Source: a virus
Virus record (IMG/VR): IMGVR_UViG_3300009481_004080
Location: 1-20,663 of that record
Length of the DNA: 20,663 nt
Reading direction: 5' to 3' (one strand)
The translations under genes were made by a program, and so were the position numbers. This document shows positions 36 to 14,187 of this stretch, piece by piece. The stretch's first letter is position 1. The number at the start of each line of letters is the position of its first letter. The notes beneath the pieces are model-generated. The model was not told the origin of the DNA. It saw only the letters and a list, made by a program, of their open reading frames with translations, and did no database searches.

Positions 36-64
36 TTGACAAAACGTGTAGAGTAGTGTATAGT
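36..64 (+). promoter_or_regulatory. sigma70-type promoter for the lipoprotein gene
   Basis: A perfect -35 box TTGACA (36-41) is followed after 17 bases by TATAGT (59-64), one mismatch from the -10 consensus. The expected transcript would begin near 71, giving a leader of about 25 bases that contains the ribosome site AGGAG (84-88) before the ATG at 96. This is a host-polymerase type of promoter, unlike the NATAAATA late boxes elsewhere in the window, so the lipoprotein gene is probably expressed early or independently of the late programme. Confidence 0.8.
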
Positions 65-95
65 AAGACATAATGTTCAGAATAGGAGAAAGTGA

Positions 96-548
96 ATGAA
101 CAAGTATATTAAAGCAGTGAGTGCTGTCGGAATGTGTGCATTACTCGCTGGATGTAACGCCCATTCTAGTGGATTTAATAATTCTCAGATGGGTACTGTG
201 ATCGGCGGAGTCGCTGGTGGCGTTGTCGGTAATCAGTTCGGAAAGGGTTCTGGAAAGACTGCTGCGACGGCACTTGGTGCGGTAATCGGTGCGATGACAG
301 GAAATAACGTGGGAGCTTCTATGGATCGCCCAAGGGTCATCTATCAACAGCCTCCTGTGATTTATCGACCTCAGGTCGGGTCAGGTCGCTGCGCTGGTTA
401 TGCGAATGAAGGTGTTCGAGCTGCATGTAATCGTGGAGTTGCGGAACGAGAAGCAGAACGTCAGCGTCGATTAGAAGAAGATGCGTATCGCCGTGGTCGT
501 GGAGTAGTCGGACGGACTTGTGGATCATTGTCAAATCCGTGTCGGTAA
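96..548 (+). CDS. Glycine-zipper lipoprotein (probable moron gene)
   Basis: A 150-residue exported lipoprotein. Residues 1-19 are a signal peptide with a lipobox ending LAGC, so Cys20 would be lipidated; Asn21 at +2 fits outer-membrane sorting by the E. coli rule. Residues 33-73 form a glycine zipper (repeated GxxxG as in GGVAGGVVG and GAVIGAMTG), the arrangement seen in the 17-kDa antigen/SlyB/OsmB-like 2TM family. The C-terminal part is rich in Arg and Glu and has four cysteines that could form disulfides outside the membrane. The start is supported by AGGAG seven bases upstream. GC counted by hand over 181-420 is 54%, against 22-38% in four 60-base lines sampled in downstream genes, which suggests recent acquisition from a richer-GC genome. 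A role in altering the infected cell envelope, such as superinfection exclusion, is only inference; it could also be a virion or lysis-related protein. Confidence 0.85.
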   Translation: MNKYIKAVSAVGMCALLAGCNAHSSGFNNSQMGTVIGGVAGGVVGNQFGKGSGKTAATALGAVIGAMTGNNVGASMDRPRVIYQQPPVIYRPQVGSGRCAGYANEGVRAACNRGVAEREAERQRRLEEDAYRRGRGVVGRTCGSLSNPCR

Positions 549-551
549 TTG

Positions 552-659
552 ATGCGTGAACTAGGAAAGTTCATAGGAATACTTATTTGGTTATGGGTAT
601 TCCTTCTTGTATTCGATTTAGGTGGATTTACTCTAATAGAGTATTTTGGTAAAATGTGA
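552..659 (+). CDS. Small single-pass membrane peptide (35 aa)
   Basis: A 35-codon reading frame starts four bases after the lipoprotein stop codon and ends 12 bases before the next ATG, filling the gap between them. Residues 7-24 are a strongly hydrophobic stretch (FIGILIWLWVFLLVF within it) that fits one transmembrane helix, preceded by a basic N-terminus (Arg2, Lys6), so the N-terminus is probably cytoplasmic. No good ribosome site is visible, so translation may depend on coupling to the lipoprotein gene. I do not recognise the family. Its position next to an envelope lipoprotein suggests the two may act together at the membrane, but this is inferred from neighbourhood only. Confidence 0.5.
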   Translation: MRELGKFIGILIWLWVFLLVFDLGGFTLIEYFGKM

Positions 660-671
660 GGACTAAATAAT

Positions 672-956
672 ATGTATAGTATTGGTGATGACGTTCGCTA
701 CTATGACGAGTATAGCGAGCGAGAGAAAAGTGGAACCATAACAGAAGTCAATTCTGATTTGGACTCGTATGTTAACCTTGAAGTAAAAAATGATGTAGTT
801 CATTATTACTCCAAGAAACTCAAGAAGTATGTGCCGGTAAAACCAAAGAATATGGATACCCTATACTTCACGATTCCGCAACGAACCAGTGATGACTTTG
901 TTTTGGTTAGAAATATTCTAGGGAGCTCAGATGGGAAAGAAAGAAATAACGCCTGA
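672..956 (+). CDS. Hypothetical protein, small beta-rich
   Basis: A 94-residue soluble protein preceded by GAGG ten bases upstream of the ATG. The first 40 residues, beginning MYSIGDDVRYYDEY and containing GTITEV, look like a short SH3-like or KOW-like beta barrel by eye; the middle carries a lysine-rich stretch (KKLKKYVPVKPK). I do not recognise the family and propose no function. Its last 26 bases overlap the next gene in another frame, the tight packing of a phage operon. AT-rich codon use matches the downstream phage genes rather than the lipoprotein gene. Confidence 0.7.
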   Translation: MYSIGDDVRYYDEYSEREKSGTITEVNSDLDSYVNLEVKNDVVHYYSKKLKKYVPVKPKNMDTLYFTIPQRTSDDFVLVRNILGSSDGKERNNA

Positions 957-1173
957 AACTATGGAAAAACATGCGAAGGCTGCGGTGATGACAGGAATCA
1001 ATGCGATGACTGATTTCTCCAATCCTGTTTCTATTATGAATACGTCTGCCTTGATGTTACAGACAGCATTGAATTTATATTCGATGGTTCTGACAAAAGA
1101 AGATATGCATGAGTTACTTGATATGGCAAAAAAACAGCTTGAAGAAAATGTAGAGGATACTGTTTATCATTGA
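931..1173 (+). CDS. Hypothetical protein, small helical
   Basis: An 80-residue protein started by ATG with GGGAG five bases upstream (921-925), a strong signal that supports the start even though it lies inside the end of the previous gene. The sequence looks almost wholly helical, with an amphipathic middle (SALMLQTALNLYSMVL) and an acidic C-terminal helix (KKQLEENVED). No signal peptide or clear membrane helix. I do not recognise the family. Its stop codon overlaps the proposed TTG start of the next gene (TTGA), which suggests coupled translation. Confidence 0.7.
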   Translation: MGKKEITPETMEKHAKAAVMTGINAMTDFSNPVSIMNTSALMLQTALNLYSMVLTKEDMHELLDMAKKQLEENVEDTVYH

Positions 1174-1799
1174 GTTTACTAAGAGAAATGGCGAACAATG
1201 TTTCGTCTAAAAAGGGTACGTTCACAAATTCATACCCTGTAATTATAGAACATCAATCATTTGACAATGAGGTTATAGAGGAAGTTATTCGTTCTGTAGG
1301 TGATCAGGATGGACAGCGAACACGGGCAAAGTGCTATCGTACTCGCTGGGATTTACATAATGTACACCCCGAAGTAGAAAAAATTGGATTGACTGCAATA
1401 AAGATTGCACACAAACATCCACTAGCAGGACGAACATCCCCCGATGGAACACCCGAAGAGATACAATATGGTATACGAGAGTGTTGGGGTCTTATCTATA
1501 CGCAAGGACAAGAGACTCGTTCTCACTCACATTGGCCCTCTACATGGGCATTTGTCTATAACGTGAAGTCCTGTTCTAAGTGTTCCCCCCTTATATTACC
1601 TTCCAATGGTGTTCATCCAGACACTAAAATTCCACCAGTAGATGGACAATTGACATTGTTTCCAGCTTGGTTGAATCATGAAGTTCCTAATCAACCATGC
1701 GAACATGATAGAATTATTGTTGCCGGTAATCTAGATATTGTGTGGAGAATAAATTGGGACACAAAAAATATCGAAACAAATTTATCAGAGGACATTTAG
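1170..1799 (+). CDS. 2-oxoglutarate/Fe(II) oxygenase-like protein
   Basis: A protein of 209 residues from TTG at 1170, or 203 from ATG at 1188; the start is uncertain because GAGG (1153-1156) is far from the TTG and the purine run 1181-1186 is very close to the ATG. The core resembles the double-stranded beta-helix of 2OG-Fe(II) oxygenases of the TIGR02466/PF13759 type: His119 and His121 in SHSHWPSTWAFVY, then DGQLTLFPAWLNHEVP with His170, and Arg181 eleven residues later, the usual spacing for the Arg that binds the 2OG carboxylate. His119 or His121 with His170 are the likely iron ligands; I do not see a plain HxD motif. A CSKC pair (135-138) interrupts the strands after the first His motif. 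Such oxygenases are common in marine T4-like phages, with mostly unknown substrates. Position ahead of the baseplate genes might mean a virion protein or nearby factor is modified, but nothing proves this. Confidence 0.7.
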   Translation: MSLLREMANNVSSKKGTFTNSYPVIIEHQSFDNEVIEEVIRSVGDQDGQRTRAKCYRTRWDLHNVHPEVEKIGLTAIKIAHKHPLAGRTSPDGTPEEIQYGIRECWGLIYTQGQETRSHSHWPSTWAFVYNVKSCSKCSPLILPSNGVHPDTKIPPVDGQLTLFPAWLNHEVPNQPCEHDRIIVAGNLDIVWRINWDTKNIETNLSEDI

Positions 1800-1817: not shown

Positions 1818-1997
1818 ATGATAAGATACAGAATTATCCATACAAATATGGTATGCGATGGTATGATGTACGATGATGCCCTGTTAACTCTTCAGCAGTT
1901 ACAGGATACCAACCCTGACATTGAATATGAAATAGAAGAATACAACTACGTTCTGGCAGAACATAAAGGTTTAGGCCGAGATCCTGATCTCCATTAA
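1818..1997 (+). CDS. Hypothetical protein (59 aa)
   Basis: A 59-codon frame fills the space between the oxygenase-like gene and the late promoter of gp5. It begins MIRYRIIHTN, has an acidic middle (YEIEEYNYVLAEH) and ends GRDPDLH. Codon use and the compact alpha/beta look are like a real small phage protein rather than random sequence. No convincing ribosome site precedes the ATG. I do not recognise a functional family, and no role can be offered beyond its place in the accessory block. Confidence 0.6.
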   Translation: MIRYRIIHTNMVCDGMMYDDALLTLQQLQDTNPDIEYEIEEYNYVLAEHKGLGRDPDLH

Positions 1998-2001
1998 TCG
2001 T

Positions 2002-2009
2002 TATAAATA
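2002..2009 (+). promoter_or_regulatory. T4-type late promoter ahead of gp5
   Basis: A perfect TATAAATA lies in the 38-base gap before gp5. With the box at about -13 to -6, transcription would start near 2015, just ahead of the ribosome site GGAG (2025-2028) and ATG 2036. In T4 this box is read by the gp55 late sigma factor with the sliding clamp; marine relatives use NATAAATA. Confidence 0.85.
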
Positions 2010-2035: not shown

Positions 2036-3349
2036 ATGAAAGATTTTTTGGGCAAAGACGGATTCGTTTGGTTCGTAGGTGTAGTAGAGGATCGTGACGA
2101 TCCAGATCAATTGGGCCGTCTGCGAGTTCGTTGTTTAGGCTGGCATACTGATGATCGTGCTGAATTAGAACATACAAACTTACCGTGGGCAACGGTAATG
2201 CAACCTACCGACACGCCAGGAACCGTACCAAATACTGCTTTGGTAGAAGGTACTTGGGTTGTCGGTTTTTTTCAAGATGCAGATAAAGGACAACACCCTA
2301 TTATCATGGGGTCGTTGCCAGGCTTTCATTTAGAAAAACCAAATTTCAGTAAGGGGTTTTCTGATCCAAAAAAGAAATATCCTATTAGTGAAGGTGGTGA
2401 ACCAGATACTAGCAGACTTGCAAGAGGATCTATAGCAGAAACACATCCATCTCTTCAACAACGTAGGTCTATGAAACAGACAAAAGTTCCTAAGGCAAAG
2501 AAACCTCATTTGTCACAAACCGATGCCGATTCAACAGATGAAGAGAGAACAACTTGGGATGAGGAAGATCCTAGACAGAATACTAGTTCCAGATATCCTT
2601 TTAATCATGTGAGAGAATTTGAATCTGGAATTGTATATGAGGATGATGATACGCCTGGAGCTGTCCGTATTTTACGTCAACACCCAACGGGAACATTTGA
2701 AGAAATAGAACCTAAAGGGGATCGAGTATTAAAGGTTATAGGGAAAAGTTATGAGATTGTTATGAAAGACAATAATGTTCTTATTTCTGGTGATTTAAAT
2801 GTTACTGTTCAAGGAACAAAGCGGGAGTTAATTAAGGGAGATTATGTTTTAGAAGTTGAAGGTGATTATACGCAAAACATTGGTAAAAATCAAAGAACAA
2901 AAATAGGTTATATTAACGGTGGAAATAAGTACGAAGAAATTCTTGGGAATTGGGCGTTTAATATCAACGATAATGTAAGAGGACGAGTCGAGGATGATGT
3001 AGATGTAATGATTGGTGGAAACCAGAGTTATAAGATTAACGGGGAAAACAAGATACAGGTACAGAAAGATTTTACTACTATAGTAGGAAACGATATACTT
3101 ACTAACGCAAAGAATAATATGGCAGTAAGTACTACTTCTGGAATTATGTCGCATAAGTCTGGTAGTAAACTTAATATGAAGTCTGCTGCTACCATGACAA
3201 TTAAATCAGAATCAACAACGGATTGGACTTCAGTAGGATTGGTTACAGAGACATTCCAAGCCTCTCATACCAATAACACTACTGGAACATTTGATCTAAA
3301 TGTGAGTACAGAGGTTGATGTTGATTCTGGAATTATTAATTTGAACTAA
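2036..3349 (+). CDS. 5: Baseplate hub spike, gp5-like, no lysozyme domain
   Basis: A 437-residue homologue of T4 gp5, the trimeric needle that punctures the outer membrane. Residues 10-105 are the OB-fold domain (WFVGVVEDRDDPDQLGRLRV, matching T4 NWFVGVVEDR). FSDP at 108-111 also has a T4 counterpart. From Tyr187 the triple-stranded beta-helix begins (YPFNHVREFESG, DDTPGAVR, HPTGTFEEI, all with close T4 matches) and continues with short glycine-turn repeats such as VSGDLNVTVQG-type strands to the C-terminal DSGIINLN, which should carry the PAAR tip. T4 gp5 is 575 residues and has a lysozyme between these parts; here only about 78 hydrophilic residues separate them, with no catalytic motif. 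GGAG eight bases before the ATG and the late promoter support the start. The stop TAA overlaps the next ATG (TAATG). Confidence 0.92.
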   Translation: MKDFLGKDGFVWFVGVVEDRDDPDQLGRLRVRCLGWHTDDRAELEHTNLPWATVMQPTDTPGTVPNTALVEGTWVVGFFQDADKGQHPIIMGSLPGFHLEKPNFSKGFSDPKKKYPISEGGEPDTSRLARGSIAETHPSLQQRRSMKQTKVPKAKKPHLSQTDADSTDEERTTWDEEDPRQNTSSRYPFNHVREFESGIVYEDDDTPGAVRILRQHPTGTFEEIEPKGDRVLKVIGKSYEIVMKDNNVLISGDLNVTVQGTKRELIKGDYVLEVEGDYTQNIGKNQRTKIGYINGGNKYEEILGNWAFNINDNVRGRVEDDVDVMIGGNQSYKINGENKIQVQKDFTTIVGNDILTNAKNNMAVSTTSGIMSHKSGSKLNMKSAATMTIKSESTTDWTSVGLVTETFQASHTNNTTGTFDLNVSTEVDVDSGIINLN

Positions 3350-3828: not shown

Positions 3829-5073
3829 ATGGCGCAATTTAATTTAGGAAATCTTTGCGGAACAAACGCTAACTTTAATCAGTTAGAAATTCAGTTTGAA
3901 GATTTGAAAACTAAACTTCTAAATGATATTGAGGCAGAAGCTTCTGCACTTGTATCCAATATGACAGGTGGACTTGTTCAATTGGATTTGGATTTGCGTT
4001 CATTACTTTCGGAGAAACCTACACTACCTAATGTTAGTCTGCAATCGGAAATTAAAGATTTAGTTGGTCTTGCAGTTGGTTCTTCACAATATAATAGTAA
4101 ACTTGCAACTCTTATAACACAATTTGGTACGGCATTAGCAGGGGATAATAAAGATCTTGTGAAATTAGTTGCAGCAGCTGCGGTTCTTATTGCCGGTGGA
4201 AAGGATATTTGTGATTTGATTCCAAATATGACAATTCCAGCAGCTGGAGGTGCAGTTACTACTCTTGCAAAGAATGTATCACAACCAGATAAAAATTCAA
4301 TTCCAGAAGTTGTATCTACTATTATAACACCTGTTGAATCTGTAAATAAATCAAATGAAAATAAAGATAAAAGACATGCAAAGGCAGAAGAATTATTCAA
4401 ACAAGAAATTGTTAAAATAGATGAAAGTTGTGGAACTACAGGAAGAGTAACTGCTAAAACTAGAAGAACTTTTTTAGAATCAGATGAAAAAATTAAATCC
4501 TCTATGATAAATGAGGGATATACTTTACCTGTAGATATGAAATTACAAGATATCACTGATATGGAAACGCATCTTATAGGTGGTACTGGTACTAGTAAAC
4601 CGTGGTTAAATCCTGATGAAGACGGAACGGCAATTAAAGAACAAAAATACGAGAAATCTGTAACCGCAGCAGCAGCTCCACTTTCTGCATCTATATCTAA
4701 ACTATCCGAATCTCTAAAAAGAGCATCTGGTTCATTTCCGTACAATACTACTTCTGATGGTACAAAGGTATTTTTCAATAATAATAGCTCAGAAATTATA
4801 GGTATTAAAGAACAACTAAATCGTGCTGGACAATTTCAGAGTAACGCCATTTCTGCTATTATGTCTAATAAAGAAGGTGCTGATTTTGATACATCAAGTG
4901 AAATATTCAAATCATTTGAATTGGATATGAAAACTTTATCCTCTACATTAGAAACTTCTCTTGCGTCATTAAATACAAACTTTACTCGTCCTATTACTGA
5001 TATAGATAAAATAATTGAAGAAGATGTAGAAATTACTCCACAATCTTTACCAAAAATCAGCGATGTTATATAA
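3829..5073 (+). CDS. Unknown structural or assembly protein next to PAAR
   Basis: A 414-residue protein starting two bases after the PAAR stop, with GGAGGG (3818-3823) as ribosome site. It starts MAQFNLGNLCGTNANF. Residues 15-160 look helical, including an alanine-rich hydrophobic stretch (LVKLVAAAAVLIAGG) near residue 112; residues 165-200 are a charged lysine/glutamate-rich section; the rest is mixed helical and Ser/Thr-rich, ending in acidic residues. There is no signal peptide. I do not recognise a T4 counterpart. Its place between the spike tip and gp25, in one transcription unit with both, suggests a hub-associated structural protein or assembly factor. A tape-measure role is unlikely at this length, and a lytic activity replacing the missing gp5 lysozyme is possible but no catalytic motif is visible. 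Confidence 0.8.
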   Translation: MAQFNLGNLCGTNANFNQLEIQFEDLKTKLLNDIEAEASALVSNMTGGLVQLDLDLRSLLSEKPTLPNVSLQSEIKDLVGLAVGSSQYNSKLATLITQFGTALAGDNKDLVKLVAAAAVLIAGGKDICDLIPNMTIPAAGGAVTTLAKNVSQPDKNSIPEVVSTIITPVESVNKSNENKDKRHAKAEELFKQEIVKIDESCGTTGRVTAKTRRTFLESDEKIKSSMINEGYTLPVDMKLQDITDMETHLIGGTGTSKPWLNPDEDGTAIKEQKYEKSVTAAAAPLSASISKLSESLKRASGSFPYNTTSDGTKVFFNNNSSEIIGIKEQLNRAGQFQSNAISAIMSNKEGADFDTSSEIFKSFELDMKTLSSTLETSLASLNTNFTRPITDIDKIIEEDVEITPQSLPKISDVI

Positions 5074-12687: not shown

Positions 12688-14187
12688 ATGGCAGCTATAA
12701 TAACAGAAAAATTTAAGCAGCACAATGCGAATCAATTTTTTGAGTCGTTCAGTGAATCTGCTAATAACACATATTACCTATTTTTAGGTAAAGCAACTCC
12801 ATTTACGAGTGGAACAAGTGGTGGTACGGATGCAGCGCCTCCTACGCCATCTGACTCGCCTGCTGATGAATATTATATTTGGGACGATATGCTTGCTGCC
12901 AAAAAGATCGGAACAACTGATATTACTTATGCCATTCCTCGTAGAAATTGGGTAAATAGTACAATTTATGACCAATATGAAGATAATATTAATGCATCAA
13001 ACACATCAACTTCTGGTGCGACAAATCTTTTTAGTTCAACATATTATTTCATGACTTCTGATTATCGTGTATATAAAGTTCTTGACAATAATGCTGGAGC
13101 AGTATATAATGGTATTGAACCTACATCTACATCAAACTCTGCATTTACTCTTGGGGGATATGTTCTCAAATACATGTATTCATTAACAAGTGCAGAAATT
13201 GAAAAGTACTTGACAACAGACTTTATGCCTGTTAGTACAGATAGTACTGTTAGTGCAGCTGCAATAGATGGAGCTATTGAATCTCTAGTTATTACGGGTG
13301 GAGTGGGATACACAGACGGGACATATTACGCCGCAGTATATGGTGATGGAACAAACCAAGGAGCTGCATCTGGTGCGATTGTTCGTATTACTATCGCCTC
13401 TGGAGCAATTCAAGGTTTCGGTGTTACTGCCGGAACAGATACTACTATTCATGCTGCCGGTGCTTCATACACATATGGTACAGTTAATCTAGGAAGTGGT
13501 TATACATTCTCTGATGCTGGACTAACATCTGCTTCTTCTGTAGGAAGTGGTTCGGGTGGTGTAGTTAGTGTTCAAGCAAGTCCTAAAGGTGGACATGGTT
13601 CCAATGCCGTGACAGAATTGGGTGGACACTATGTAATGTTAAATACTACCTTGACACAAGCAGAAGGAGATGACTTTACGACCAAAAATGATTTCCGTAG
13701 AGTTGGACTTGTAATTGATCCATTTAATTATGGTACGACAACGGTTGCTTCTGCTTCAACTCGTAGACAAACATTTGCATTGAAGTTGACAAGTACTTCT
13801 GGAACTTTTGATGCAGATGAGAAAATTTCTCAGACATCTACAGGTGCGATTGGTAAAGTTGTAGAATGGGATGCTGTAAATAGTATTTTGTATTATCAAC
13901 AGGAACGCTTTGGTGATTATGGAACAGTTAGTACAACTGGTTCTTATGTTGCCTTTAGTGGTGCAAATGCCGTAACAGGTGCAACTTCAAGTGCAGCAGG
14001 AACACCAGATGCAAGTGCAGATGCTGCTATCACTCTTGCTGGTGGTGGTACTATTACATTTACAAATGGATATGCAAATCCAGAATTAGATCCTGATAGT
14101 GGAGACATTATCTATGTGGAAAATAGGAAACCGATTAGTCGTGCTTCCGATCAAACGGAAGACATTAAACTTGTAGTGGAATTTTAA
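12688..14187 (+). CDS. 8: Baseplate wedge protein gp8 with a large insertion
   Basis: A 499-residue homologue of T4 gp8 (334 residues), the dimeric wedge protein that links gp7 and gp6. Marks in order: an N-terminal IITEKFKQHNANQFFES corresponding to T4 IVTSKFRTEKMLNFYNS, APPTPSDS, AIPRRNW (82-88; T4 AIPRRDW), SDYRVYKVLDN, GGYVLKYMYSL (156-166; T4 GYVWEYLFEI), NDFRRVGLVIDP (T4 GFRQISIITNP) and the C-terminal YVENRKPISRASDQTEDI, nearly identical in pattern to T4 YMENRPPIIMAMDQTEEI. The extra length is two insertions: a Gly/Ser-rich beta section at about residues 200-305 and a module with DEKISQTSTGAIGKVVEW at about 373-390. It has its own late promoter and GAGG ribosome site. The stop is three bases before the next ATG. 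Confidence 0.92.
   Translation: MAAIITEKFKQHNANQFFESFSESANNTYYLFLGKATPFTSGTSGGTDAAPPTPSDSPADEYYIWDDMLAAKKIGTTDITYAIPRRNWVNSTIYDQYEDNINASNTSTSGATNLFSSTYYFMTSDYRVYKVLDNNAGAVYNGIEPTSTSNSAFTLGGYVLKYMYSLTSAEIEKYLTTDFMPVSTDSTVSAAAIDGAIESLVITGGVGYTDGTYYAAVYGDGTNQGAASGAIVRITIASGAIQGFGVTAGTDTTIHAAGASYTYGTVNLGSGYTFSDAGLTSASSVGSGSGGVVSVQASPKGGHGSNAVTELGGHYVMLNTTLTQAEGDDFTTKNDFRRVGLVIDPFNYGTTTVASASTRRQTFALKLTSTSGTFDADEKISQTSTGAIGKVVEWDAVNSILYYQQERFGDYGTVSTTGSYVAFSGANAVTGATSSAAGTPDASADAAITLAGGGTITFTNGYANPELDPDSGDIIYVENRKPISRASDQTEDIKLVVEF

Follow-up and report, generated by a model that had tools for sequence, protein, structure and literature searches.

A gene for a glycine-zipper lipoprotein, with a sigma70-type promoter and a probable leader ahead of it, lies close to the start of the window (the whole 20,663-base stretch of DNA analysed, which is a single IMG/VR virus record). 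The source of the window is a lytic T4-like marine phage, Kyanoviridae-like in character. The cultured phages closest to it in gp6 are Methylophilales phage Melnitz (47%) and the Pelagibacter phages HTVC008M and Mosig (both 46%), and all three are Kyanoviridae. From gp5 on, at 2036, the window carries a tail and baseplate block made up of a gp5-like hub, PAAR, gp25, gp6 and large structural proteins. A sister contig, L002, has the same gene order from the lipoprotein gene to gp6. A first-pass annotation had described an envelope lipoprotein with a glycine zipper, a near-consensus sigma70 promoter and a position at the edge of a late structural region. The gp5, PAAR, gp25 and gp6 block downstream bears out the last of these and conservation of the promoter in L002 the second; the lipobox and the domain matches given below support the first at the level of predicted protein features.

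Table 1. Features of the lipoprotein gene and its surroundings, numbered as in the window
Feature	Position	Strand	Description
sigma70-type (early) promoter	36..64	+	TTGACA-17-TATAGT, 11/12 match to consensus
probable 5′ leader	73..89	+	block common to L002 (ATGTTCAGAA) and Shine-Dalgarno aggaga, 84-89
glycine-zipper lipoprotein	96..548	+	150 aa, ATG start; lipobox LAGC with Cys20
possible membrane peptide	552..659	+	35 aa, single-span, from sequence; gap in L002 alignment
ORF2	672..956	+	94 aa, conserved, junction marker in relatives; homologs known from L002, L006 and other contigs
ORF3	931..1173	+	80 aa; conserved in L002
2OG-Fe(II) oxygenase	1170..1799	+	PF13759 E=1e-7; phrog_81 E=4e-23
T4-type late promoter motif TATAAATA	2002..2009	+	26 bases 5′ of gp5; motif scan
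gp5-like baseplate hub protein	2036..3349	+	PF06714 E=3e-19; phrog_430 E=5e-84; first clear structural gene

Several minor features accompany these genes. A weak terminator-like hairpin at 575–604, found by a terminator scan, overlaps the ORF of the possible membrane peptide; at the corresponding position in the relative L006 there is an unrelated 64-aa membrane protein, which follows uvsX. Where the window has one 2OG-Fe(II) oxygenase gene ahead of gp5, relatives have several oxygenase-like genes of this kind in tandem, likewise between ORF2 and gp5 (L006:2746-5758). An unlisted ORF of 59 aa (window 1818–1997) occupies the gap between the oxygenase gene and gp5; it is conserved at 68% in L002, and its end, GRDPDLH, is also found in L006. 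In L002 a second small lipoprotein-like ORF of 98 aa (MRRILPIVAISLLVSGC; L002:3791-4087), for which no Pfam or PHROG match was found, is immediately 5′ of the glycine-zipper lipoprotein gene, and tRNA-Arg(tct) is about 650 bases ahead of the latter.

The N-terminal signal and a lipobox ending in cysteine (MNKYIKAVSAVGMCALLAGC in the window, LGAC in L002) mark the product as a probable lipoprotein of the bacterial type. Its zipper extends over approximately residues 32–73, and is followed by a conserved segment containing Cys99 and Cys111 and then by a variable C-terminal helix. The Pfam model PF05433 (Rick_17kDa_Anti) matches the window protein over the full model length (E=2e-11, 44 bits against a cut-off of 24.2) and the L002 homolog with 38 bits, and PF13488 also matches the window protein above its cut-off (E=2e-6). 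The two proteins are 73% identical: all 41 residues from 26 to 66 are the same, 33 of the 36 at 81–116 are kept (the two cysteines among them), and at 117–150 only 13 of 34 are. A model made by AlphaFold from two input sequences has a mean pLDDT of 48 and gives nothing firm on the fold.

The sole solved relative with a meaningful score in a PDB search is SlyB of Escherichia coli (7ojf, E=0.0023). Matches to prion protein (E 0.3–0.6) were dismissed as low-complexity Gly/Ala. SlyB is likewise a lipoprotein expected in the outer membrane, and its zipper stretch aligns at residues 25–80. However, it is bacterial and PhoPQ stress-induced, and its C-terminal part is unlike that of the phage protein. 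The match is weak and does not reach beyond the zipper, which is itself found repeatedly among unrelated proteins, and no SlyB family model was matched in Pfam or NCBIfam. Similarly, the signal peptide, lipobox and zipper align at residues 11–78 with the NCBIfam model YiaD_Gzip_OmpA (NF053611), but this match, which is to the zipper part only, reaches just 41 bits where the cut-off is 175, and the phage protein is without the OmpA peptidoglycan-binding domain.

The Shine-Dalgarno sequence of the lipoprotein gene is 6 bases 5′ of its ATG. Single matches to a sigma70 promoter are to be treated with caution. Chance alone would give about 1.5 sites of at least 11/12 in the window, counting both strands, and a perfect 12/12 match at 13082–13110, within a 499-aa structural coding ORF, is probably such a chance occurrence. 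For the promoter of the lipoprotein gene the comparison with L002 is more telling. At the matching place upstream of its lipoprotein gene, L002 has TTGACA-17-TATAAT (12/12; 4100–4128). The two agree at 11 of the 12 hexamer positions and in the 17-base spacing, but at no more than 7 of the 17 positions within the spacer. Since hexamers and spacing were retained as the spacer diverged, the promoter is, on this sequence comparison, very likely real.

The non-structural 4.2 kb of L002 have three sigma70 promoters, the other two being at 1249 and 1795, and a motif scan of its structural part revealed none of such quality on the coding strand. The late-type motif TATAAATA has further copies in the window ahead of gp25 (5069) and of a 304-aa ORF (11711), and in L002 it also precedes both gp5 and gp25. 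With sigma70 promoters on the non-structural side and TATAAATA on the structural side, the lipoprotein gene is the final unit of early type ahead of the late genes. (A CTAAATA at 662, ahead of ORF2, was excluded as a promoter; it overlaps the ribosome-binding region.) The study of Melnitz lists 31 early promoters, equating these with its predicted sigma70 promoters, alongside 15 late ones of the TATAAAT type (PMC9004378). Sigma70 promoters are the ordinary early promoters of this phage group.

Among the phages searched, the lipoprotein gene is present in two viral contigs only, the window and L002. There is no tblastn match in cultured phage records even at E=10, and none of the other related fragments searched has a PF05433 match above cut-off. 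An apparent homolog in L003 was rejected: it is a secreted protein rich in glycine that aligns only over a short segment around YQQPPVIY. Twenty other contigs include ORF2 together with sequence on its upstream side, and all of them lack the lipoprotein gene there; in 19 of these uvsX lies no more than about 2.5 kb upstream, most commonly with a 186-aa gene next; the 20 are all fragments and include many near duplicates. The absence of the gene from these relatives, and the usual presence of uvsX there, indicate that the site is a hypervariable island at the boundary of the replication and structural modules. It corresponds to a hypervariable region between these modules in pelagimyophages, which has envelope and coinfection-related genes (PMC7029224). 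Annotated near gp5 and gp25 are an outer membrane porin in HTVC008M and a lipid A pathway enzyme in Mosig. The lipoprotein gene is a conserved, lineage-restricted accessory gene of a known general kind.

The reading favoured here, with a probability of roughly 40%, is that the product is an early accessory lipoprotein of the outer membrane, which forms oligomers by means of its zipper and strengthens or remodels that membrane as SlyB does. Given the conserved promoter, host RNA polymerase with sigma70 would transcribe the gene early. The Asn at +2 points to the outer membrane as destination. There the near-invariant glycine-zipper hairpin would drive oligomerisation inside the membrane, with the Cys99–Cys111 segment and the variable charged helix turned to the periplasm. 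The lipoprotein most likely packs around outer-membrane proteins or weakened patches of lipid, and such packing could keep or reshape the outer membrane during infection in the manner of SlyB in Escherichia coli. SlyB rings surround outer-membrane proteins and stop rupture under stress (PMC13067283).

The main rival is superinfection exclusion, which is rather unlikely, though by no means fanciful. On this view the lipoprotein would bind, on the periplasmic side, the outer-membrane receptor used by the phage itself and block adsorption or DNA entry of further phages; the precedent is T5 Llp, with FhuA as its target. Encoded beside the gene for the receptor-binding protein, Llp is a small lipoprotein that works from the periplasm (PMC9586334). 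The early-type promoter and the encoding of an envelope lipoprotein next to structural genes fit exclusion too, and the pelagimyophage hypervariable island has been proposed to hold coinfection-avoidance genes (PMC7029224). The C-terminal part differs between the window and L002 proteins, as a receptor contact might. However, no known exclusion lipoprotein was matched in Pfam, NCBIfam or PHROGs, and the families of Llp and of T1-type Cor are absent from those results. Llp and Cor resemble the window protein in being phage-encoded lipoproteins (with the Llp gene adjoining a structural gene), but no zipper has been described in them. The best-conserved part of the window protein is a generic zipper rather than a surface specific to a receptor. 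Invariance of residues 26–66 combined with variability of 117–150 favours generic membrane packing over a purely receptor-specific role, and SlyB is the best model for such packing.

The first-pass annotation had taken the gene to be a moron, newly acquired and expressed apart from the phage programme. A true moron in this sense, gained recently from a bacterium and transcribed independently of the phage, is improbable, even though the gene has its own promoter, a raised GC content, an occurrence in just two of the phage contigs searched and matches in cellular genomes. The best of these cellular matches are to surface proteins of the RT0821/Lpp0805 family on Azospirillum plasmids (44% over 79 residues, E=1e-3). 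No close homolog was found in host genomes or other cellular genome contigs; this absence is weak evidence because the search was seeded with short exact peptides.

The GC peak itself is as first described: positions 181–420 are 54.2% GC (54% had been reported) against 36.3% for the whole window. Beyond base 550 no sampled 240-base window exceeds about 47%. Individual 60-base lines vary between 22 and 58%, and their median is 35%. When the lipoprotein is re-coded in the average codons of the phage its GC content is 45%, from which it follows that about 60% of the excess reflects the glycine, alanine and arginine content. Third-position GC of the lipoprotein gene is 0.34 against an expected 0.19. 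It is 0.40 for ORF2, 0.29 for the oxygenase gene and 0.26 for gp5, with most structural genes at 0.15–0.20, and upstream non-structural genes of L002 have values of 0.33–0.52 with the exception of one at 0.26. Since ORF2 and most of the upstream L002 genes share the raised values, the bias is one of the non-structural side and not of the lipoprotein gene alone. In Melnitz the contrast in composition between the non-structural and structural sides is weaker, but in the same direction.

Divergence also argues against recent gain. Between the window and L002 the lipoprotein gene has a dN of 0.24 with 61% of four-fold sites the same, and gp5 (70% identity) a dN of 0.24 with 57% of four-fold sites the same. 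The lipoprotein gene has diverged at about the rate of its neighbours and so was already present in the common ancestor of the two. With sigma70 promoters being the ordinary early promoters of the group, the gene is probably not expressed outside the phage programme. Of the moron claim, what stands is the gene's own promoter and its absence at this site in 20 relatives; its composition is not foreign when set against that of its neighbours. Occurrence of the same gene at the same place in all close relatives, which the annotation had set against its own proposal, holds for the sole close relative found, L002, but does not extend to all wider relatives. A GC peak, a separate promoter and an envelope product can all belong to a regular early gene situated where the early and late regions meet, and what look like signs of fresh acquisition can stem from protein content and gene class.

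A role in lysis or in disrupting the outer membrane, for instance as an outer-membrane spanin, ranks low and is very improbable. A possible 35-aa membrane peptide encoded just after an outer-membrane lipoprotein would suit it, but the promoter is early-type, the peptide is missing from L002, the adjoining genes have no recognised inner-membrane spanin partner and a glycine zipper is not known as a feature of spanins.

A different glycine-zipper protein, secreted and not lipidated, is encoded by gene 58 of the OM43 phage Melnitz, the nearest relative in culture, and is annotated there as hypothetical. Upstream of gene 58 is a promoter, TTGACA-17-TATAGT, and downstream are tRNA-Arg(tct) and the gene for ribosomal protein S21. 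Relatives of gene 58 are encoded in 63 viral contigs. A sigma70 site of at least 11/12 is present within 400 bases upstream in 46% of the 57 loci examined, against 1.2% of shuffles, a descriptive statistic that overstates the number of independent cases because the Melnitz-type loci are related to one another. Gene 58 and the window protein give only a marginal pairwise match. The two are alike in type (envelope-targeted zipper proteins behind the same kind of promoter in related phages) and differ in that the gene 58 group mostly has a standard signal peptide without a clear lipobox. The location of gene 58 and its relatives behind sigma70 promoters suggests that early envelope zipper proteins are recurrent in the phage group, and glycine-zipper envelope proteins would then recur among the early products of abundant marine phages. 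A bolder and somewhat doubtful extension is that the pelagimyophage/Melnitz group has an undescribed class of early glycine-zipper envelope proteins, secreted in most members and lipidated here, that guard or remodel the host outer membrane in slow-growing hosts.

The secreted zipper protein is widespread in marine T4-like phages (L073:1336-1746; L075-L137). In these contigs a sigma70-type promoter is often about 200 bases upstream of its gene, and in several tRNA-Arg(tct) is just downstream.
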